A stretch of DNA of 37,019 bases from Erythrobacter sp. (GTDB lineage Bacteria; Pseudomonadota; Alphaproteobacteria; Sphingomonadales; Sphingomonadaceae). The notes beneath the pieces were generated by a model. That model ran no database searches and was not told the DNA's origin. It saw only the letters and a program-made list of their open reading frames with translations. The stretch covers positions 1 to 37,019 of the forward strand of contig JASJDE010000006.1 in NCBI GenBank assembly GCA_030065195.1. Reading direction: 5' to 3'. The position numbers were made by a program, and so were the translations under genes. This document shows, piece after piece, positions 2,328 through 14,686 of this stretch; position 1 is the first letter of the stretch, and every line of letters begins with the position of its first letter.

Positions 2328-2546
2328 ACGGAATGCTTGTACCTCACGTCACCAAATGTGATCTTTTCGGCCATAGCATCAGTGCCGACAGTCGCAATCG
2401 CGCCGCAGGGTCCGACACCCGTTTTTCCGGGGCAACTCGGCCCAGCGCAGTCAGGTGTGACCATGCCCAGCTTTGTTCCCGTCTCTGTTGCACTGCGGCA
2501 ATGGCGCGTCTAAGGCTTTTCCCGTAGTGATTGGAGGATTTTGCTA

Positions 2547-3269
2547 ATGCGTCCGAAGGCTCGGAATTTCCTGTTTGCTGCCGGGATGGCAGGGCTTTCG
2601 CTGGGCGGGTGCGCTTCGACGCCCGAACCGGTGATCGGCGTTGCGGCTTCGCAGCCGGTCGGCGCTTTGGGCCAGGAAGGATTCTCCGTTGCGCGTCCAA
2701 AGACGTACCTGCTCAGGCCTTCAGACAAGATCTCCGTCAATGTCTTCCGCGAGCCTGACTTTTCAATGGAATCGGTACAGGTCGGCGTTGAGGGTAATGT
2801 TTCGCTTCCCTTGCTCGGATCGATCCCAGCCGCCGGAATGACGACGCAGCAGTTCGAGGCCGATGTCACCCGCCGGCTCGCTGCGGCAGGCCTCAAGTCA
2901 CCGATGGTAGCCATCAACATCGCGGAATACGCATCGCATCTCGTCACCGTCGAAGGGGCGGTCACCACGCCGGGCGTCTATCCGTTCGAGCCGGGCGCAC
3001 GACTGTCTTCCGCGATCGCAATGGCGGAAGGGACCGAGCGCGAAGCGAAGCGCAGCCAGGTTGCGGTGTTCCGCACCCGCGGCGACCAAATATATGTCGC
3101 GAAGTTCGATTATGGCGCGGTGAGTCAGGGCACGATGCTCGATCCGGTGCTCGAACCTAACGATCGCGTGGTTGTCGGCACCGATGGCCTTTCCGTCTTC
3201 TGGCAAGATGCGCTCAAGACCATTCCGGCTCTGGGCGTCTTTGCAACCGTGGCCATAGACAACAACTGA
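2547..3269 (+). CDS. Polysaccharide export outer-membrane lipoprotein (Wza/GumB-like)
   Basis: Lipobox LSLGG|C, polysaccharide export domain (YLLRPSDKISVNVFREPDFS) and SLBB-like segment (VTVEGAVTTPGVYPFEPG). GGAGG upstream of the ATG at 2547. Confidence 0.92.
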   Translation: MRPKARNFLFAAGMAGLSLGGCASTPEPVIGVAASQPVGALGQEGFSVARPKTYLLRPSDKISVNVFREPDFSMESVQVGVEGNVSLPLLGSIPAAGMTTQQFEADVTRRLAAAGLKSPMVAINIAEYASHLVTVEGAVTTPGVYPFEPGARLSSAIAMAEGTEREAKRSQVAVFRTRGDQIYVAKFDYGAVSQGTMLDPVLEPNDRVVVGTDGLSVFWQDALKTIPALGVFATVAIDNN

Positions 3270-3276
3270 TCAACCC

Positions 3277-5484
3277 ATGAACGACCGCTCGATCATCCAT
3301 ACCCCCGAACCGGAGGGTCGTGGAACGTGGCTGGATCCGTATCTTCCAGAGAACCAGCTGGCGCATTATCAGCAGCCGCAGCCGAAACTGATCGACGTTT
3401 CTGCGATCCGCGGGATCCTGTTCCGGCAACGTTGGCTGTTCATTGCGGTCATCAGCCTCGCTCTGATTGGCGGCCTCGTTTACACGCTGATGGCCACGCC
3501 GATGTACCAGGCGCAGGCGACGGTGAAGGTCGAGCCCTACGGTTCCTATATTGTCGAGGGGCAGGACATCGATCAGGGCCTCGCAAGCAACCAGGTGTTC
3601 GACTTTCTCGGCACCCAGCTTGCGATCATCCAGAGCCGTAATCTGGCCTCCCAGGTCGCTGCCGATCTCAATCTAGGGGAGCGGTACGATCTCCTTGGCG
3701 AAGGCATTGATGAAAGCCGTCCGCCGAACCTCGACGATGAGGCTTGGCGCAAGAGCAAGGAAGCGATGGCGGCTTCGATCCTCATGGGGTCCGTCGAAGC
3801 CGATCTTCCGGGTGATAGCTGGATCCTGACGATAACATATCGCTCCGACAATCCGGTTCTGGCAGCGGAAATGGCCAACGCTTACGCCGACGCTTTCGTC
3901 GCGTCGGACACGCGCGAAGGCATTGCCGAAAGCGAATATGCCCAAGAATACCTGCAGGAGCAGATCCAGCTGATCCGCGGGCGCCTGCAAGAAGCGGAGC
4001 AAGCCTCCAACACCTATGCCCGAAACAGCGGCATCATCGTGCAGCCCAGTGCAGGCTCCGATGAAGGCGGGATCGTCACGCTTACGACCGCCAACCTTTC
4101 AAGCATCAACCAGCGCGTATCCGAAGCGCGCGCCAAGCGGATTGACGCCGAGCAGCGCTGGCGTGCGATCCAGAATCTTCCGGCCGCCCAGCTACCCGAA
4201 GTGCAAAGCAATCCAGTATTGCAAGGCCTGGTTTCGGAACGGACCGGATTGCAGAACGAACTGATCGAATTGCGCCAGCGTTACAACGACCAGTTCCCGC
4301 AAATTCAGAACATCCTCGTCAAGATGGAAACGCTCGATCGCCAGATCGAACGCAGCAGCGCCGATATCAAAGCGACAGTCCGCAACGAATACACCGTCGC
4401 CCGCAATCAGGAACAGGCACTCGAACGCGAACTCAACGCACTGACTGGTGAGACGCTGGTCGAGCAGGACCGTCAGGTTCAGTACAGCGTCCTCGAACGC
4501 GAAGCTCAGGCATTGCGCGACCAGCTCAAGGCATTGCTCGATCGCTATAACACGATTAGCACGGCTGCGAATGTCGATGCGGGGACGCTTAGCAAACTGG
4601 ATCCGGCGACGGTGCCTGGCGGTGCCTACTCTCCGAGCCTTTCCCGAAACCTGATGCTGGCACTCGTTTTCGGGGTTGCGCTTGCCGGCGGCCTTGCCGT
4701 CTTGCGTGAGACTTTCGATGATCGAATCCGATCGCTCGACGAAGTCGAAGACAAGATTGGCCTACCGATGTTGGGCCATACGCCATTCGTCGAATCGCGC
4801 GATCTGGAAAAGGAAGAGACCAATCGCTTCAGCGCGCTGATGGAAGCCTATGCATCGATCCGTTCCGCAATCGATTTTGCCTTGCCGCGCAACCAGAACG
4901 TTATCCAGCTAACCAGTAGCCAGGCTTCCGAAGGGAAGTCGACGACGGCCGTTATCCTCGCCGAACTGTTTGCCAGTTTGGGACGAAAGACGCTGCTTAT
5001 TGATGCCGACCTGAGGCGGCCGTCGGTCGCCAGGTTGCTCGATATCGAAGACCCGCAGGCTGGTCTCGTCGAAGTCGTCCTCGGCCATACCGACTTGCAA
5101 TCCGCGGTCGTGAAGGGACTGCATGAAAACCTCGAAATCCTCCCGATAGGTTCGATCAGTCCCAACCCGACCGAATTGCTGGCCTCGCCGCAGATGCGCG
5201 AGTTCATTGAGAAGAATCGCCACGAATACGGGTTGATCATTTTTGACACCTGCCCGGTTATGGGCCTTGCCGATGCGCCTCTCCTGTCGCGCATGGTCGA
5301 CGGGACGATCTTTGTGCTCGAGGCGAACAAAGTGCATTTTGGACAGGCCAAGGCGGCGATCAAGCGCGTACGCGGAGCCGGCGGCAATATCCTCGGGGTG
5401 ATCCTGACCAAGTATCGTGCACTCGAGGCGGGCCAAAGCTACGATTATCAGTATGGGTATTACCAATACGGGCAAGATAAGTAG
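3277..5484 (+). CDS. Polysaccharide co-polymerase / BY-type tyrosine autokinase (Wzc-like)
   Basis: N-terminal Wzz domain with TM segments, Walker A-like SSQASEGKSTTAVILAELFA, Walker A' LLIDADLRRP, and a Tyr-rich C-terminus YDYQYGYYQYGQDK. Confidence 0.94.
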   Translation: MNDRSIIHTPEPEGRGTWLDPYLPENQLAHYQQPQPKLIDVSAIRGILFRQRWLFIAVISLALIGGLVYTLMATPMYQAQATVKVEPYGSYIVEGQDIDQGLASNQVFDFLGTQLAIIQSRNLASQVAADLNLGERYDLLGEGIDESRPPNLDDEAWRKSKEAMAASILMGSVEADLPGDSWILTITYRSDNPVLAAEMANAYADAFVASDTREGIAESEYAQEYLQEQIQLIRGRLQEAEQASNTYARNSGIIVQPSAGSDEGGIVTLTTANLSSINQRVSEARAKRIDAEQRWRAIQNLPAAQLPEVQSNPVLQGLVSERTGLQNELIELRQRYNDQFPQIQNILVKMETLDRQIERSSADIKATVRNEYTVARNQEQALERELNALTGETLVEQDRQVQYSVLEREAQALRDQLKALLDRYNTISTAANVDAGTLSKLDPATVPGGAYSPSLSRNLMLALVFGVALAGGLAVLRETFDDRIRSLDEVEDKIGLPMLGHTPFVESRDLEKEETNRFSALMEAYASIRSAIDFALPRNQNVIQLTSSQASEGKSTTAVILAELFASLGRKTLLIDADLRRPSVARLLDIEDPQAGLVEVVLGHTDLQSAVVKGLHENLEILPIGSISPNPTELLASPQMREFIEKNRHEYGLIIFDTCPVMGLADAPLLSRMVDGTIFVLEANKVHFGQAKAAIKRVRGAGGNILGVILTKYRALEAGQSYDYQYGYYQYGQDK

Positions 5485-6381: not shown

Positions 6382-7380
6382 ATGCCTGCCATCAGTCCGT
6401 CGAAGACCGAGGAAACAAGAGAAGAGAACGGCCTCGGCGCCACGGTCTCGATCCTTATCGTCGCATTTGATTCCGCCGATCTCATCCGGGCCTGTCTCGA
6501 TTCCGTAGAGCAAGCCTGCACGCAGCACAGCTATGAAGTGCTGCTGGTCGACAATGGCGACGGTTCGACCGAAGCCTTGGTGCGTCGCGATTACCCCGAA
6601 GTGCGAATTGTCGAAAGCAGAGGCAATGTCGGGTTCGCTGCGGGCAACAACTGGCTGGCCCGCCATGCACAATCCGACAGGTTCCTCCTGCTCAATCCCG
6701 ATATGGAGCTGGAGCGCGGCGCGATCGATGCCTTGCTCGATGGCGCGGTCACACACCCCGAAGCAGCGGCCTGGGGCGGCGTTACCGTCGATGCACTTGG
6801 CAAGCCCGATAGCGGCAACGCCATTGCCATGCCGTCACTCGCCGAATTTGCCAGCGCTGCGATGGGTAGGTCCATCATCGGGAACAGTCGGATGCAAGGG
6901 GTCGACACGGACGCCAAGGTCGACGTTCTGATCGGCGGCTTTGTCATGTTTGACCGGACCGCATGGGAACGGGTTGGAGGGTTCGACGAACGTTACTTCC
7001 TCTATTGCGAGGAAGTCGACTTGTACTACCGGCTCAAACGACACGGATTCGCTTTTTGGCGTATTGCCGATGCTCGCGGGCACCACGCGATTGCCCACGG
7101 GCAGGGACTTTCACCGCTCCGCATGCTGTATCGTGCGGCTGGTTCGGCGGAGTTCGTTCGGCGCCACTGGTCACTGCCTTCTTCGGCTTTGGCGCGTTTC
7201 TTGATTTGGCTCGCTGCATTCGAGCGTGTCGCCGCGGGGTGGCTTGTCGGCGGTTGGCGTCCAAGACTGGCGGCCATGGGCCGCGGTTATCGCGATGTCG
7301 CACTGAGGCCGCAGTTGTGGGTCCATGGATACGACCCGGATCGGGGATTGCTGAGCCAGTTGAAGCGTGAAAACGCTTAG
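6382..7380 (+). CDS. Glycosyltransferase family 2, rhamnosyltransferase-like
   Basis: VSILIVAFDSADLIRACLDSV, ESRGNVGFAAGNNWLA, LLLNPDMELE, GGFDERYFLYCEEVDLYYRLKRHG. Confidence 0.9.
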   Translation: MPAISPSKTEETREENGLGATVSILIVAFDSADLIRACLDSVEQACTQHSYEVLLVDNGDGSTEALVRRDYPEVRIVESRGNVGFAAGNNWLARHAQSDRFLLLNPDMELERGAIDALLDGAVTHPEAAAWGGVTVDALGKPDSGNAIAMPSLAEFASAAMGRSIIGNSRMQGVDTDAKVDVLIGGFVMFDRTAWERVGGFDERYFLYCEEVDLYYRLKRHGFAFWRIADARGHHAIAHGQGLSPLRMLYRAAGSAEFVRRHWSLPSSALARFLIWLAAFERVAAGWLVGGWRPRLAAMGRGYRDVALRPQLWVHGYDPDRGLLSQLKRENA

Positions 7381-8795
7381 CTCTCGCCGTCATGCATGCC
7401 TTGTCCCGATTCTGCCTGCCGGGAATGCGAAATGCTACGCCGGTCGGGAACCCTGACTTCGCCAACGGGCATAAGACCGCTTGGCATCGTCCGCTTGCGT
7501 TCGGCATAGCCAAGGCTGACGGTGATGCCCAGCAGCATGAAGAACCAGGCTTGAGCCGACAGCCAGATTGCGACGGAAATCACGCCGAAAGCGAACACCG
7601 CCATAGCAATTGCGATGCCGCGTTCGAACCGTTGGTCGACCCGTGTGGAATGCGTGCTGCGACGCGCCAAAGTGTAAATGGCGATCGCGCAGGCAAGACC
7701 AATGAGCAATGGAGGAATGATCCCGAACTGGATCGCCTGCAACAACCAGTAGTGGTCGATCGAGCCCTTCATCCAACTCGGCCGCTCCCACTCGGCATAG
7801 CCAATGCCGAACCACGGGTTCTTTTCGACATTGTCGGTGCCGTAGCGCCAAATCAACACGCGATTATATGCGCTGTAGGAGTTCAGCGAAGCAAAGCGCA
7901 TCACAAAGCTGAACGCACCGGCATTGGTGCCGAATTCCAGAACGAAAGTAACCAACGCGCCGGCCAGGAAAAACATTCGCCAAGACAGGTTGGCGATCTG
8001 TTCGCTCAGCCAGTTGTAGACGACTAGGCCGGTCCCCGCTGCGAGCGCCAGGAGCGCCGCCGAACTGACCGTGAAGAAGCTGCTGATCGAAGCGGCGATG
8101 CCGATCAGGAACGGCCAACCGCGCAGGCCCGAAAGCCAGTAGAGCGGAAGGAAACTCGCGAAGAAGATCCCGGCCAGGATCGGGTGAGGGAATGGCCCGC
8201 GCGCGCGCATGAAACCTAGCCGTTCATCGATCCGGGTGTTCACGCCCTGTCCGGTAAACTGGGCAACAAACGGCTGAAGGAGGTGGGTTTTGGTGACGGA
8301 CTCATAGACTAGGATTCCGCCCATCACGGCTAATCCCGGCAACATCAGGAGCAGGAATATCCGCACATCCCGCAATGATCGGAATGCCGCCCTGGCGAAG
8401 AAATACGCTAGTGCTGTATCGGTGACTTGCGCAACGCTTGCCGTAAACGCGTCGACCGCTTCGGTCGTCATGAATAGTGCGAATGCTGTCCACGCCGCCG
8501 CGCCTGCGACAAAGAGGTCCGGCCATGTGAACCGGAATCTGCCCGACAAGGCGCTGGCGAAAACGAAGATCGCAGCCGGTATGAGAAAAAACCGATAGGG
8601 CGGCAGAACCGATCCCATGATCGACGTGTTGAGCTGCGGGGGCAGCAACAGGATGTAGCCGAGCAGGACGGCAAGATAGATCGGCAAATCGCTCGAAAAG
8701 GCGCGCGGTCGTCCACGGACCGGAGGGGGTGCAAATCGAGGACGATGCGCGGTTGCCACGGCGTCGGACGTTAAACGGTTTGCACGGTCGATCAA
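7377..8795 (-). CDS. O-antigen ligase / Wzy-like polymerase
   Basis: 472-aa polytopic membrane protein with a large loop (GIGYAEWERPSWMKGSIDHYWLLQAIQFGIIPPLL) typical of Wzy_C proteins. Confidence 0.75.
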   Translation of the reverse strand: MIDRANRLTSDAVATAHRPRFAPPPVRGRPRAFSSDLPIYLAVLLGYILLLPPQLNTSIMGSVLPPYRFFLIPAAIFVFASALSGRFRFTWPDLFVAGAAAWTAFALFMTTEAVDAFTASVAQVTDTALAYFFARAAFRSLRDVRIFLLLMLPGLAVMGGILVYESVTKTHLLQPFVAQFTGQGVNTRIDERLGFMRARGPFPHPILAGIFFASFLPLYWLSGLRGWPFLIGIAASISSFFTVSSAALLALAAGTGLVVYNWLSEQIANLSWRMFFLAGALVTFVLEFGTNAGAFSFVMRFASLNSYSAYNRVLIWRYGTDNVEKNPWFGIGYAEWERPSWMKGSIDHYWLLQAIQFGIIPPLLIGLACAIAIYTLARRSTHSTRVDQRFERGIAIAMAVFAFGVISVAIWLSAQAWFFMLLGITVSLGYAERKRTMPSGLMPVGEVRVPDRRSISHSRQAESGQGMHDGES

Positions 8796-8819: not shown

Positions 8820-9407
8820 CTATCCGTCCGCCTGCTGCGTCGGCATGATTTCGCGTGTGCTCACGACCCTTGCCGGCGATCCGGCAATGATGCTCATTGG
8901 AGGAAATTCACCTCGCACCACGGCCCCTGCGCCGACGATGCAACCGTCGCCGATCGTTGTTCCCGGCAGGATCACGGCGCGTGTCGCAAACCACACGTCG
9001 TTGCCGATCGTTATGTCGGCTTCGCCCATTGGCTGATCTGTCACGGGATGGCCCAGGTCGTAGCGATAGCTCGCTGCCGTGACCAACACGTCCGGGCCGA
9101 ATAACGCATCGTCGCCAATACGGATGTGACCGTCACGCGGCCCCCCCCAAAGATGACAGCGGGACCCGATGCGGGCGCGGTGTCCGATCGTAATCCTCTC
9201 GGGATTCTGGAAAATCGCATCGGGGCTCACATTGCGTTCGCCCGCAAATGTGACCTTCCGCAGCGGAGTGACATGATTGTAGTTGTAGAAGTTGACGATC
9301 TTCACGAGATGCAGCCATGCTCGAGGATCGAGCAGGGACGCGAGCAACCGGATTCCGCGCCGCGATTTCACTGGGGCGTCCTTCCGCACCAAATCGGTAT
9401 CCGCCAT
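8820..9407 (-). CDS. WcaF-like left-handed beta-helix O-acetyltransferase
   Basis: Hexapeptide-repeat region (ITIGHRARIGSRCHLWGGPRDGHIRIGDDALFGPDVLV...IGNDVWFATRAVILPGTTIGDGCIVGAGAVV). Confidence 0.87.
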   Translation of the reverse strand: MADTDLVRKDAPVKSRRGIRLLASLLDPRAWLHLVKIVNFYNYNHVTPLRKVTFAGERNVSPDAIFQNPERITIGHRARIGSRCHLWGGPRDGHIRIGDDALFGPDVLVTAASYRYDLGHPVTDQPMGEADITIGNDVWFATRAVILPGTTIGDGCIVGAGAVVRGEFPPMSIIAGSPARVVSTREIMPTQQADG

Positions 9408-9616
9408 GGCGTGCCCTCCGCTTTTCGCTCGTTCCCGGTCGGACGTTGGGCTTAGGTCAGCAGGTCCAGCGAAGTCCAGCGATCAAGGCGGCAATCCCCA
9501 CTGTGCTTTCCCTCGCTCGCGAGCCGCCGGAAACTCGCCGCCCTCCAGAAACAGCTTTCCTACAATTCACCTATTTGGTTAGGCTATTGACGATTCTCAT
9601 CTGATGGAGGTTAGCG

Positions 9617-9886
9617 ATGCCATTCGATCCATTCGAAAACTCGAGCGACAGTCTGATCGCCCCGGCCAAAACAGCATTCGAAATTTCCCCGGATGACAAC
9701 GCCGACCTCGCAGGCGCCACCAAGGCCATCTATGTCGGTACTGGCGGAAACATTACCGCGCGCCCGGTTGAATCCGAACAAGACGTCACCTTTCACAATG
9801 TTGTTGCGGGAACCGTCCTGGCCGTGCGCCTGCGAGCCGTTAGGTCCAGTGGCACCACCGCTGCCGATCTGGTAGGCCTCGCCTGA
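9617..9886 (+). CDS. GTA/phage-type spike base protein (Rcc01079-like)
   Basis: 89 aa MPFDPFENSSDSLIAPAKTAFEISPDDNADLAGATKAIYVGTGGNITARPVESEQDVTFHNVVAGTVLAVRLRAVRSSGTTAADLVGLA. Pattern resembles the RCAP_Rcc01079 spike base family (DP(F)E...SLxxPA...SDxxDLxxxTRAxYVGTGG...VTFxNVxAGxxLPVR...TGTTA). GGAGG RBS. Confidence 0.75.
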   Translation: MPFDPFENSSDSLIAPAKTAFEISPDDNADLAGATKAIYVGTGGNITARPVESEQDVTFHNVVAGTVLAVRLRAVRSSGTTAADLVGLA

Positions 9887-12636
9887 TGAGCTGGCTAGGT
9901 CTTGGTGTTGTCTCCAATCTGTCGACTGCGCTGCTCCAAAGCGTATCCGCGAATGGGACGCCACCGTTGCTGGCCCCATCCGCATCGTGGACAGGCATCG
10001 AAGGAAGCGGGTTTTCTGCGATACCGGTCGACCCGGTACGATTGACTGCCAAGCCGGCTCTGCGACTCATCACGCCGCCCAAACAGCATTTCACCGATAC
10101 GCTCGATGTCGGTGTGTTCGCCGCTGCCAATGACGGCGGTTCGCTGCTCGACAGTCTCGGACTGGCCGGCGTCACGTTTCACCTTGAAGGCAATAACGTC
10201 ACCCTCGAAAGGCCGAGCCTGCACAGTTTCGTCGATGTGAACGGAAGCCTGCAAACCTATTTCGGATGGTGGGTTCGCTTGCGCAAACCGCCGCAGGAAA
10301 GTGGCTATGCGCACCTGTATATCGAAGCCACTCCGCGCGATGCGACGATGCAAAGCCGGGTGATTGGACCCTACCTCTTTGCACCGCAGAACGAACTCTT
10401 CGATGGGCAGCTGAGCGTGGCACCGACGGCTCCGGAGGTGGAAGGAGCCAGCTACCAGAGCGTCGTTGCCGCAATCGAGCATGCCAAGGCTCAGTCGTGG
10501 GAGAACTACCTCCTGACTCTTGCCGAGCCCGGCAAATACGACATCGGCGAGAGCACCCCTACCCGCTGGGACCAAAAGGGATGGTGCAACATAAGCGCAG
10601 GTGTGCCGGGCTGCTCGATCGGCAAACAAGGCTACAGCAACGACGCCGAAGCCAAGATTATTCCCGCACGCTCTCCAATCCGTTTGATGGGCTCCGACCT
10701 GACGCTGGATTTCCGCCATGTGGTCGAAATCGACAGCTTCGACGGCAACTTCTGGTGCGACGGGATCAGCATCACATCAAGCGACCCGCGCGGACGATAC
10801 GAGACCTTGCGCGGCGGCCCGCCGGACCAATTCGGTTGGCGGATCGACGGCAACCCGTACTTCACCGAATGCGAAATATCCGAGCTTTCCGGCGTTTGCG
10901 GACAGGCCAGGTTGGTGCGCGGATGCGTGCTTACCAACATGACCTACGACGTCTTCGGCGATGTCACCTGCGCGGTATTCAACCGCCTGACCAACCATCG
11001 CGGAGGATACTGGTACACGGACCATCCGTGCGTCGAAATCTCCTATTCCGGAGCGGAAGGCTCGGCGACAATTCAGCGCGACGGCTCAGCCGATGCCGGG
11101 ATCGCAACATGGACTGCCAGCTGGGGGACAAGCATTGCGACCTTCGAATGTGGCAACCGGGAGGAATACTATCTTCGCACTTCGGGCGACGGCTACACTT
11201 TTCAGGATCTCGTCGACTGGGTGAATGGCGACCTCGCAGCACTCGACGGCGGCTGGTCCGCCACCCTTACCGATACCGAATTCGCCGATATTCGCTGCTG
11301 CGCCGGTTCACTTCCCGGCGCCAAGGGCGCCGGTTTCGGCCCGCAAGACGTCGCATCCGAACCGTTGACAATAGCCGCCATGTTCGACCGTCATGGAGAT
11401 TTCTACCAGCACGCGACCGGGACGCTGGAGAATGCGATCATTGCCTTCAACTCCGGCGTCGATGTCCAGGCGCAGCTGATCTTCATTTCGCCCACCGAGA
11501 TCGGCGGCGATGCAGCCGAACGTGATCTGATGATCCTTGGCAACGCGTTCTACCTTCGCCCCGGCCTCGACGGCTACTACGATCCCGAAGCCAATTCGTC
11601 GCAATTCGGGCGAACAAATCTCACCGCCAGCCATGTCGTGATTGCCCACAACACACACGCCAACCAACGCTGGCTGATTCGTTCGGACAACCCCGGCTTT
11701 ACCACCGATCCCTATTGCCTTTTCACCAACAATGTCGCCAGCGCCGTGGTCTATGCCGGGCCGACGCTTCCCAATCTGACTATAGATGCACTGCACCTGC
11801 ACGGCTCCGCAACCAAACCTTCAGGAGCGACGCGGGTTGCCTTTGGCGGCGACGAAACCAGCTTGTTCGTCGATCCGGCCGCAGGCGACTTCACTCCCGC
11901 TGGCGCCCTTATGTCGAGTGGATTCGCACCGACCCTCCCCTTTGATGCCTTCAACGGTGAATTTCCCGAGATTGCCGCCCCCGGTGCAATTGCCGCATCA
12001 GCGACGGGATTTGTCGATAGCGGCGTAGGAAGCGGGAGCGGCGATCCCGAAGCCGACCTGATTGCCTTGTTGACTGCGGCAGGCGGACAATCCAGCTTTC
12101 ACGATTACGTCAACGCAAATGATGCCCCGCCTTGGACATCGCAAGACAGCGCCAACTCCAACGACCACACGCAGGCGATCAATTCGCGCAAACCCGGCAT
12201 CGATGCCGGCGGTGCTACATTCGATGGCAATAACGACTTTGTGTTTCAGGCGATCACAGGTGGTTCTTTCACTGTGGCCATGGCGGTAACGGTCAACGAT
12301 CCGGCGGACCCCGGCGTATTCGTTTCGGACGACGCAAACACGACTTATGTGCAATACCAGGCCGGAAGCGGAGTGGCGCATCTCGCGACAGTCAGAGTCG
12401 GTGGCGAAGTCCGCTCGACGCGCGGCGAAGTCCACAATGCCGTAGACGGCGCGGGCGAAGTGGTAATTCTTATGGAAGGCCTCGACCTTGCGGGACGAAA
12501 CCAGCTGCGGATAGGGCGCGGTTCGGGGGCGATGAACGCCACTGTGCGCCGGGTCGCTGTTATCGAGGAAAACGCCTTCCCCAACACCCTGCAGGAAGTA
12601 CGCCAACTAGCCGCCGAAGCAGTCGCGGCCAGCTAG
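9886..12636 (+). CDS. Large spike/fibre-like protein: beta-helix-type central region and LamG/ConA-like C-terminal region
   Basis: 916 aa, start overlaps the stop of the spike base gene. Many short beta-type segments with no signal peptide; C-terminus PGIDAGGATFDGNNDFVFQAITGGSFTVAMAVTV...RNQLRIGRGSG resembles a concanavalin-A-like fold. Confidence 0.7.
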   Translation: MSWLGLGVVSNLSTALLQSVSANGTPPLLAPSASWTGIEGSGFSAIPVDPVRLTAKPALRLITPPKQHFTDTLDVGVFAAANDGGSLLDSLGLAGVTFHLEGNNVTLERPSLHSFVDVNGSLQTYFGWWVRLRKPPQESGYAHLYIEATPRDATMQSRVIGPYLFAPQNELFDGQLSVAPTAPEVEGASYQSVVAAIEHAKAQSWENYLLTLAEPGKYDIGESTPTRWDQKGWCNISAGVPGCSIGKQGYSNDAEAKIIPARSPIRLMGSDLTLDFRHVVEIDSFDGNFWCDGISITSSDPRGRYETLRGGPPDQFGWRIDGNPYFTECEISELSGVCGQARLVRGCVLTNMTYDVFGDVTCAVFNRLTNHRGGYWYTDHPCVEISYSGAEGSATIQRDGSADAGIATWTASWGTSIATFECGNREEYYLRTSGDGYTFQDLVDWVNGDLAALDGGWSATLTDTEFADIRCCAGSLPGAKGAGFGPQDVASEPLTIAAMFDRHGDFYQHATGTLENAIIAFNSGVDVQAQLIFISPTEIGGDAAERDLMILGNAFYLRPGLDGYYDPEANSSQFGRTNLTASHVVIAHNTHANQRWLIRSDNPGFTTDPYCLFTNNVASAVVYAGPTLPNLTIDALHLHGSATKPSGATRVAFGGDETSLFVDPAAGDFTPAGALMSSGFAPTLPFDAFNGEFPEIAAPGAIAASATGFVDSGVGSGSGDPEADLIALLTAAGGQSSFHDYVNANDAPPWTSQDSANSNDHTQAINSRKPGIDAGGATFDGNNDFVFQAITGGSFTVAMAVTVNDPADPGVFVSDDANTTYVQYQAGSGVAHLATVRVGGEVRSTRGEVHNAVDGAGEVVILMEGLDLAGRNQLRIGRGSGAMNATVRRVAVIEENAFPNTLQEVRQLAAEAVAAS

Positions 12637-13268
12637 CCGTCCATCGACTTCAAGGGCACGCCCATCCGAATAAGCCGTCCGCGGATCCGATTGAAAATCG
12701 TGCCGCGTTGCTTCTGGGAGTTGGTGTGGACGAATTGACCCTCGGGAACATCGTCCCGGCTGAGGAAATCGCCGAGCTCCTTCCATCCGTGGCCGCGCTC
12801 AAGCCAGAATTCGAGCAAATCGCCGGGTCGGTCGGCGAAATATTCGCGCACCGTTTCGTTGTGAGCGTCGTAGACCTCGCGATAGCGCGCTTCATGACCG
12901 ACCGGCGCTGGCGCGTCGTCACCGTAGGTCAGCTGCTGGATATGATAGGGATTGTCGCCAAAGTGATTGGCAATTGAGCGATACCAGCGATCCGTCTCTC
13001 TAATCGTCAGGATGAACTTTGAGCCAGGAAACGCCCGATCGAGTTCGCGAAACATCAGCGGCCAAGGCATGTCTTCGACTGCATCGTATTCCTTTGCAAT
13101 CTCAAGCCCGCGCTCGACAAAGGTTGCGCGCAGTTCATCGAGAGGCACGTCCCGTCCGAACACACCGCAGACCCGATACCCGATCTGCGCCAGAGCATCG
13201 CGCAGCGAAGATGTGCCCGTCTTCTGGAATCCGATGCAAAAGACTTTACCGGAGTGGGGTTCTGACAT
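12633..13268 (-). CDS. P-loop sulfotransferase family protein
   Basis: 5'-PSB-like motif KVFCIGFQKTGTSSLRDAL, SKFILTIRETDRWYRSI. Start taken at internal MSEPHSGK. Confidence 0.87.
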   Translation of the reverse strand: MSEPHSGKVFCIGFQKTGTSSLRDALAQIGYRVCGVFGRDVPLDELRATFVERGLEIAKEYDAVEDMPWPLMFRELDRAFPGSKFILTIRETDRWYRSIANHFGDNPYHIQQLTYGDDAPAPVGHEARYREVYDAHNETVREYFADRPGDLLEFWLERGHGWKELGDFLSRDDVPEGQFVHTNSQKQRGTIFNRIRGRLIRMGVPLKSMDG

Positions 13269-13396
13269 CGCAAGACATTCCGACGTAGCTGGTACTTGTC
13301 CTCCACCTACTACAGTCAGCGCCCTTGCCAAGGCGCGGGCGGCTCGCATACGCCCCAGCAGGGCTTAACCTTGTGGACAGCGGGACATCTCACGGC

Positions 13397-14686
13397 ATGC
13401 CTAATCGATTAGTGCAGCGGCTGGACCGGTTTTCGCCCAATGGGCTTCGCTTCGAATTGCTGCTTGGGCTGGGCATGCGCTCTGCTGGGGCCGTGTCCGC
13501 CTTCGCAATGACATGGATAGTCGCGCGCATGTTCGGTGCGGAGACTTTTGGCCATTTCCAGTTGGCCCTGGCGACTGCGACAATTCTGGCGCTGATTGCA
13601 ACGCAGGGACTTGACCGGCTGATCGTGCGGACAGCCAGCGCGACATTTGCCAAGGAGCGAGCGGGAGCGGCGCTCAACTTCTTTGTCCATGCGCGCAACC
13701 GGCAATTGCTTGTAAGCGTGCCACTGGCGATCACCGCATGGCTGATCTCCGAACCGATCGCGGTTCATATTCTGGAGGAACCGGAGGTTGCTTGGCACCT
13801 GCGTTTGCTGGCACCGGCGATCGTGGCCTTGCCGTTGATCAAGGCGTGCAGTTCGCTGCTCCGAGCAAAGGGCAGCGTCCTGGTTTCACAGTCGCTCGAT
13901 GGAGTCGGCTACACTACGCTGGCGATTGTTGTCATCGCTGTTGTGCTGCTGTCAGGGTCGGCGGTTTCAGGCCTTTCTCCGTCAATCGCATACCTCGTGG
14001 GCGTGGTTCTTGTCGCGGGTGCCGGAATCGTGCTTGTCCGGAGAGCGATGCGCTTCGCTAAGCGAGAGATTGGCTCGGTCCAATTGGCCAGCGGGTTGTT
14101 CATCGCGGCGTTTAGTGTGCTGGTCGCGCTCAATGACTGGCTCGGCCTGTTCCTTCTCACGGCATTTCGCGATGCCGCCGAAGCCGGTATCTACCGAGTT
14201 GGTTTCCAAATCTGCCTACTGTTCACACTGGTCAACAGCAGCTTCGCACTCATGGCGGGGCCGCGGTTGGCGACGGCTTTCGATCAGGGTGATGCGGCAG
14301 AGGCATGGAAGACGGTACGTACATCAAGCGCAATGGGCATCGCCATCGTTGCCCCCCTCCTATTGCTGATCCTCTTCGCTGCCGAACCGATCCTGTCACT
14401 CTTCGGAGCAGAATTTGCGCGTGGGGCCGACGCTCTGCGCATTCTTGCAATCGGGCAGTTTATCAATGTCGCCGCCGGTCCCGCAGGGGCAGCGCTCACC
14501 ATGATGAAGCGCGAACGTGCCGTGCTGATAATCGAAATCGCAACGGTGATCGTGTGCGTTGGATTGCTGCTCTGGCTGCTGCCAACCTACGGCATGGTTG
14601 CCGCTGCAATCGCCGCTGCAACCGGAGCGGCCCTGCGAAATGCCGGCGCATTGCTGGTGCTGCGGCGACTACTTGCTGCGCTATGA
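13397..14686 (+). CDS. Polysaccharide flippase (Wzx/MATE-like)
   Basis: Multi-TM protein with Wzx-like segments (GLGMRSAGAVSAFAMTWIVARMFGAETFGHFQLALA...). Start taken at MPNRLVQRL. Confidence 0.85.
   Translation: MPNRLVQRLDRFSPNGLRFELLLGLGMRSAGAVSAFAMTWIVARMFGAETFGHFQLALATATILALIATQGLDRLIVRTASATFAKERAGAALNFFVHARNRQLLVSVPLAITAWLISEPIAVHILEEPEVAWHLRLLAPAIVALPLIKACSSLLRAKGSVLVSQSLDGVGYTTLAIVVIAVVLLSGSAVSGLSPSIAYLVGVVLVAGAGIVLVRRAMRFAKREIGSVQLASGLFIAAFSVLVALNDWLGLFLLTAFRDAAEAGIYRVGFQICLLFTLVNSSFALMAGPRLATAFDQGDAAEAWKTVRTSSAMGIAIVAPLLLLILFAAEPILSLFGAEFARGADALRILAIGQFINVAAGPAGAALTMMKRERAVLIIEIATVIVCVGLLLWLLPTYGMVAAAIAAATGAALRNAGALLVLRRLLAAL

Follow-up and report, generated by a model that had tools for sequence, protein, structure and literature searches.

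The head spikes of the RcGTA particle of Rhodobacter capsulatus are the closest described counterpart of the locus reported here. They are encoded by GhsA and GhsB (rcc01079/rcc01080), whose genes lie outside the main GTA cluster and next to capsule genes (rcc01081-86) (PMC10218006, PMC7296036); spike and capsule genes are co-regulated, and the spike binds the capsule (PMC10218006). Residues 2-10 of the RcGTA fibre, IALGLGLGL, form a five-point star within the base pentamer (PMC7296036). In R. capsulatus, CtrA and GafA trigger the late GTA genes, which include those for the head spikes and for lysis (PMC9638019). A further point of comparison is provided by the tailspikes of capsule-targeting phages and prophages, which are polysaccharide-directed right-handed beta-helices with modular tips.

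The window analysed here, a stretch of 37,019 nucleotides from Erythrobacter sp. placed by its named relatives in the Erythrobacter/Porphyrobacter group, shares with R. capsulatus a homologous base gene, an adjoining fibre gene with a hydrophobic-Gly anchor, and a position outside the main GTA cluster beside capsule genes. Since spike genes adjoining capsule genes have been described before in R. capsulatus, the principle of linkage is not new, and the present case extends a known one. The earlier reading of this DNA had rightly stated that the Rhodobacter spikes lie outside the main cluster and bind capsule, and had overlooked their adjacency to capsule genes. The differences from RcGTA are these: the fibre has 916 aa and a beta-helix shaft, compared with 325 aa in RcGTA; the pair is flanked by serotype-type genes inside a complete Wza/Wzc/Wzy/Wzx locus; it has its own promoter-like element, common to a lysozyme gene; and the linkage extends over 17 genera, moving with Wzy and Wzx. 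The arrangement is a family-wide form of the known spike-capsule linkage, apparently new in its spread. The literature searched does not report the family-wide spread, the place in complete capsule loci, the cassette transfer or the two genomic homes of the spike, although an earlier mention is possible. Unlike phage tailspikes, which the fibre is predicted to resemble in fold, tip modularity and polysaccharide targeting, the pair is not accompanied by a prophage, and the host encodes the adhesin and its predicted receptor in one locus.

The spike pair and its polysaccharide locus

The genes and protein regions considered below are the following (coordinates in the window, strand, description):

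2541..3269, +, Wza-like export lipoprotein (annotation)
3277..5484, +, Wzc-like chain-length kinase (annotation)
7377..8795, -, Wzy-type polymerase/ligase (PF04932, just under the Pfam cut-off)
8820..9407, -, hexapeptide acetyltransferase, capsule modification (PF00132)
9606..9610, +, Shine-Dalgarno GGAGG for the spike operon (sequence reading)
9617..9886, +, head-spike base protein, Rcc01079 family, 89 aa (NF048002, PHROG 12296, PDB RcGTA base)
9886..12636, +, spike fibre, 916 aa, start overlapping the base stop as TGATG (ORF, AlphaFold2 model)
9886..9909, +, fibre N-terminal anchor MSWLGLGV (M1, G5, G7 invariant; RcGTA likeness)
9955..11985, +, fibre shaft, aa 24-700, beta-sandwich and right-handed beta-helix (AlphaFold2; shared with other fibres)
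11986..12633, +, fibre C-terminal module, aa 701-916, lectin/CBM-like model (recurrence on other fibres)
12633..13349, -, sulfotransferase, Sulfotransfer_4 (PF17784, E 1.5e-30)
13325..14686, +, Wzx-type flippase (PF01943)

The 89-aa protein is a spike base. It matches the NCBIfam model NF048002, 'spike base protein, RCAP_Rcc01079 family' (E 1.9e-30, 105 bits against a cut-off of 28 bits), PHROG 12296 in PHROGs (E 7.2e-18) and the RcGTA head-spike base in PDB entries 6tb9/6tba/6tui (E 6e-9), in full agreement with its first identification as an Rcc01079-like base, coordinates included. The same family is also seen in phages, e.g. RcapNL. Eighteen genus members of the base were aligned; the base tree, which is poorly resolved on its few columns, does not follow the genus.

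A relative of the 916-aa fibre sits behind every close base (16 aligned), and the TGATG overlap of base and fibre is kept across the genus. No family was matched by the fibre in Pfam, NCBIfam or PHROGs, and sequence searches against the PDB gave chance-level matches only. In the AlphaFold2 model, residues ~24-700 are predicted with confidence (pLDDT mostly >80) as a beta-sandwich followed by a right-handed beta-helix, in line with the beta-helix fibre first proposed; in this shaft the identity to other fibres is 30-42%. Among viral structures, the model comes closest to a beta-helix protein of Caudovirales (E 8e-5, prob 1.0), and PDB structure matches are weak, including a GH87 glucanase. The 216-aa C-terminal module is also found on L122, L076, L097 and L096, as well as on the otherwise different fibre of L030, where it is joined to a different shaft; this recurrence indicates that the module is exchanged between fibres. 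Its model (pLDDT 75) is lectin/CBM-like. Taking into account that the lectin/CBM matches are weak, the 'ConA-like' nature assigned to the fibre at first reading is plausible for the tail, and for capsule binding the models offer hints at the level of fold only.

The fibre begins with MSWLGLGV, which resembles the RcGTA anchor IALGLGLGL and is predicted to plug into the base. M1, G5 and G7 are invariant in 16/16 aligned fibres, and related N-termini read MPGFGYGLG, MAGFGFGFG, MGRLGFGFG and similar. The hydrophobic-G-hydrophobic-G pattern, picked after the sequences had been seen, occurs in 39/72 partner N-termini compared with 0.6% of the other windows of the same proteins. The anchor is missing from some fibres, more commonly in genomes without a GTA capsid (8/12) than in those with one (13/42; p 0.03). 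A second class of partners (L114, L131, L133, L134, L136, L137, L119), from three genera and encoded in other polysaccharide loci, starts with M[HR][HT]SG[SA][IL]GG rather than with hydrophobic-Gly residues, and this start is possibly an alternative anchor. In Erythrobacter colymbi (L089:10264-13347), whose genome has no HK97 capsid, the partner opens with the Tat-signal-like MSEPELTRRSFMFGATAISALALAGI and carries no anchor, a possible case of a secreted former spike fibre. For G036, the idea that its anchorless fibre accompanies a disrupted capsid gene was dismissed, as the stop precedes the MCP start.

The neighbours are as first described: the acetyltransferase (PF00132) lies upstream and the sulfotransferase (PF17784) downstream, within a Wza/Wzc/Wzy-type capsule locus that also contains a GT2 gene. 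Apart from the pair, the annotated genes of the window include no recognised phage or GTA structural gene, again in line with the first reading. A prophage tailspike would be expected alongside phage structural or integration genes; the genes around the pair are of polysaccharide and metabolic type. Adjoining the capsule locus, at window positions 20112-27202, is a lasso-peptide-type cluster with an ABC transporter, asparagine synthase, HPr-kinase-like, PqqD and transglutaminase-like protein, as well as two precursor-like ORFs (~23709-23840 and ~24029-24166), the second of which ends in TAAGSGPLFETGPGMMGTKRRP. Three of the gene families represented in this cluster are also found beside the spike-bearing capsule loci of L021, L024 and L148.

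A promoter-like element common to spike and lysozyme

Two elements precede the base gene:

9555..9581, +, promoter-like element CTTTCCTACA-N15-TA (same element at 51/54 capsule-locus spikes)
9568..9581, +, inverted repeat (C)ACC-N5-GGT(TA), of AACC-N5-GGTT type, possible regulator site

In its general form, the element consists of an A/T tract, [CT]TTTCCTAC[A], ~16 nt and TA, with the core [CT]TTTCCTACA; no published description of it was found. It stands ahead of 51/54 capsule-locus spikes, in most cases at a distance of 50-80 bp from the start of the base gene, and ahead of 0/12 GTA-cluster spikes. Scanning six genomes for the element turned up a phage-type lysozyme gene (PF00959), which it precedes in 28/30 genomes; across 8 genomes, the composite pattern gave 47 matches and its reversed control 11. 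The element was also looked for ahead of the main GTA cluster and is absent there. The lysozyme gene is single-copy (L206-L235) and was found in 37/40 genomes tested, GTA-less ones included. With its spike-type element, it is a candidate GTA endolysin, or a candidate for an independent cell lysis gene.

The sharing of a promoter-like element by spike and lysozyme suggests late production of the spike, and it would fit the logic of late GTA genes in R. capsulatus, with the main GTA cluster remaining outside the arrangement. Repeats resembling AACC-N5-GGTT were found upstream of 12 spikes. At ~13 other loci, among them L027, L033, L149 and L163, GTTC-N7-GTTC-like direct repeats stand in their place, just downstream of the TTTCCTACA element; these we take to be LexA-box-like in alphaproteobacteria. 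GafA carries a DnaA-like domain. TTTCCTACA resembles a DnaA box and the inverted repeat resembles CtrA half-sites; both likenesses are leads only. In genome G021, which has no GTA capsid, the spike-type promoter with TAACCTATTTGGTTA occurs in two nearly identical copies (L187 and L204, at G021:C1:25398 and 2688409), which precede a short ORF and, as judged by eye, a small secreted-looking Excalibur-like protein.

Distribution of the GTA cluster and of spike-capsule linkage

A GTA structural cluster, whose presence elsewhere in the genome had been proposed as a check, is located on contig C88. It is of RcGTA type and comprises a terminase-like protein, portal, HK97 capsid and tail, together with a Rcc01695-family distal tail protein, hub and megatron; the capsid matches the RcGTA MCP with E 1.7e-84. 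Spike and cluster are on separate contigs of a MAG that is 87% complete, and in the closed genome G026 MCP and spike share one chromosome. Close relatives of the C88 capsid occur in 16/37 genus genomes, GTA having been lost from many members, and matches to it occur in 254/401 genomes of the family. GTA_TIM (PF13547) had no match in the genus; the conclusion that the genus has no GTA, drawn from this silence, was discarded as a false negative of the domain model on the basis of TIGR02217 and capsid searches.

The neighbourhoods of 78 spike-base loci from the family were fetched and the neighbouring proteins clustered. Polysaccharide loci house 54 of the 78 (17 genera), 12 lie inside the GTA cluster (6 genera) and 12 elsewhere, compared with 0/20 control regions, from 15 of the same genomes, meeting the polysaccharide criterion. 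Among the 54 capsule-type loci, Wza or Wzc lies <=10 kb from the spike in 50 and a Wzy cluster is present in 31; no phage genes were identified in the capsule loci examined. Beyond the family, two more families show polysaccharide contexts (L277, L279), and one other shows a GTA-cluster context (L276). Because several locus organisations are involved, the linkage is not a single inherited arrangement.

The presence of the spike base within GTA clusters of 6 genera ties the spike family to the GTA capsid. These 12 bases mostly follow the MCP directly. Those of other Sphingomonadaceae (e.g. G524, G534, G727) share with our pair the base family, a mostly overlapping fibre and, in several, an RcGTA-like anchor; they differ in lying mostly ~100-140 bp after the MCP and in having no separate promoter element. 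A GTA MCP is more common in genomes with a capsule-locus spike (34/41) than in the others (220/360; p 0.0036). Nevertheless, 12/54 capsule-locus spike genomes have no GTA MCP and retain intact spike ORFs, and none of the 11 MCP-less spike genomes tested has an HK97 capsid. Consequently, there is no known particle for the spike in these genomes. There the spike may have hitchhiked with the capsule, the GTA may have been lost recently, or the spike may serve another function.

Transfer with the capsule and competing explanations

The two loci L146 and L026 belong to different genera, and their Wza (49%), Wzc (47%) and GT2 (32%) are divergent. Identity between the two loci reaches 59-71% for Wzy, Wzx, the spike base, the C-terminus of the fibre and linked genes, and 53% for the whole fibre. 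These identities indicate joint transfer of the spike with Wzy, Wzx and the linked genes. Over 27 loci, covariation with the variable capsule genes was found for the C-terminal 300 residues of the fibre (r 0.31, p 0.0002, Wzc controlled) and is not significant for the N-terminal part. The C-tip result comes from raw-similarity tests and leans on few pairs: it fades once the ~5 closest partners are dropped, covariation with Wzy alone is not significant, and rank-based Mantel tests over all pairs are null. The proposed check on covariation between spike tip and capsule therefore gave a result that is suggestive.

We favour, as reasonably probable, the interpretation that the pair is the head-spike operon of a resident RcGTA-type GTA, housed in the capsule/exopolysaccharide locus, and probably a capsule-linked GTA recognition module. 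By homology to RcGTA, pentamers of the 89-aa base would be seated on the capsid vertices, one fibre would be plugged into each through its hydrophobic-Gly N-terminus, and the beta-helix and C-terminal tip would bind the polysaccharide produced by the neighbouring genes. Expressed from its own promoter, common to the phage-type lysozyme gene, the spike would be made late. With adhesin and receptor genes in a single cassette, horizontal exchange of the capsule type would carry the matching spike with it, and GTA transfer would stay among like-capsuled cells, amounting to kin targeting. The first-pass annotation had proposed such a receptor-binding module travelling with the genes for its receptor. 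The base and anchor matches, the C88 cluster and the L146/L026 cassette transfer speak for it; the few-pair covariation, the non-significant result for Wzy and the spikes in genomes without GTA or HK97 capsid leave it partly supported. Of the three outcomes that were to count against it, a missing spike match, missing GTA genes and independent variation of spike and capsule genes, none was encountered.

The persistence of intact spikes in genomes lacking both GTA and HK97 capsid would also be expected if the capsule locus were a recombination hotspot that takes along a GTA spike, be it useful or neutral, whose fibre does not specifically recognise the neighbouring polysaccharide. The weakness of the covariation over most pairs and its lack of significance for Wzy point the same way. 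We consider this unlikely, yet deserving of some weight: the linkage is seen repeatedly, in polysaccharide loci of different organisation, across 17 genera and in two further families, the variable C-tip covaries with capsule genes where the N-terminal part does not, and the spikes of R. capsulatus bind the capsule specified by adjacent genes (PMC10218006). The capsid-less genomes are likewise compatible with a phage-derived operon, or with a spike repurposed for a cell function such as depolymerase or surface adhesin, rather than a GTA component. Phages such as RcapNL carry the base family, tailspike depolymerases are typically beta-helices, and a Tat-signal-like start replaces the anchor in Erythrobacter colymbi L089; however, the examined capsule loci yielded no phage genes, the genome holds a full RcGTA-type cluster, and the same spike family occurs inside the GTA cluster in 6 genera, which makes this origin rather improbable. 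The disappearance of GTA from many genus members could finally suggest a relic, i.e. a spike operon left over after GTA production ceased. Taking into account that ORFs and start overlap are intact in all close relatives and that the element is kept in 51/54 loci, we regard a relic as very improbable.

Returning to the head-spike operon of a resident GTA, a broader proposal can be put forward tentatively, at somewhat less than even chances: that capsule cassettes of Erythrobacteraceae carry their own matching GTA adhesin and cross genera as units, so that capsule type would define the gene-exchange group. If this is true, the adhesin kept in GTA-less genomes would be a self-recognition tag travelling with the capsule, or would have a second role. 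What selection upholds GTA production, in which the producer cells lyse, is an open question, and confinement to kin is one proposed answer; according to one argument, specific polysaccharide receptors confine GTAs in this way (PMC10883770). The linkage of adhesin and receptor genes across many genera makes that argument testable. The promoter-like element provides a handle on GTA regulation in Sphingomonadales, and for the bacteria themselves a change of coat type could also change the cells that their GTA recognises.
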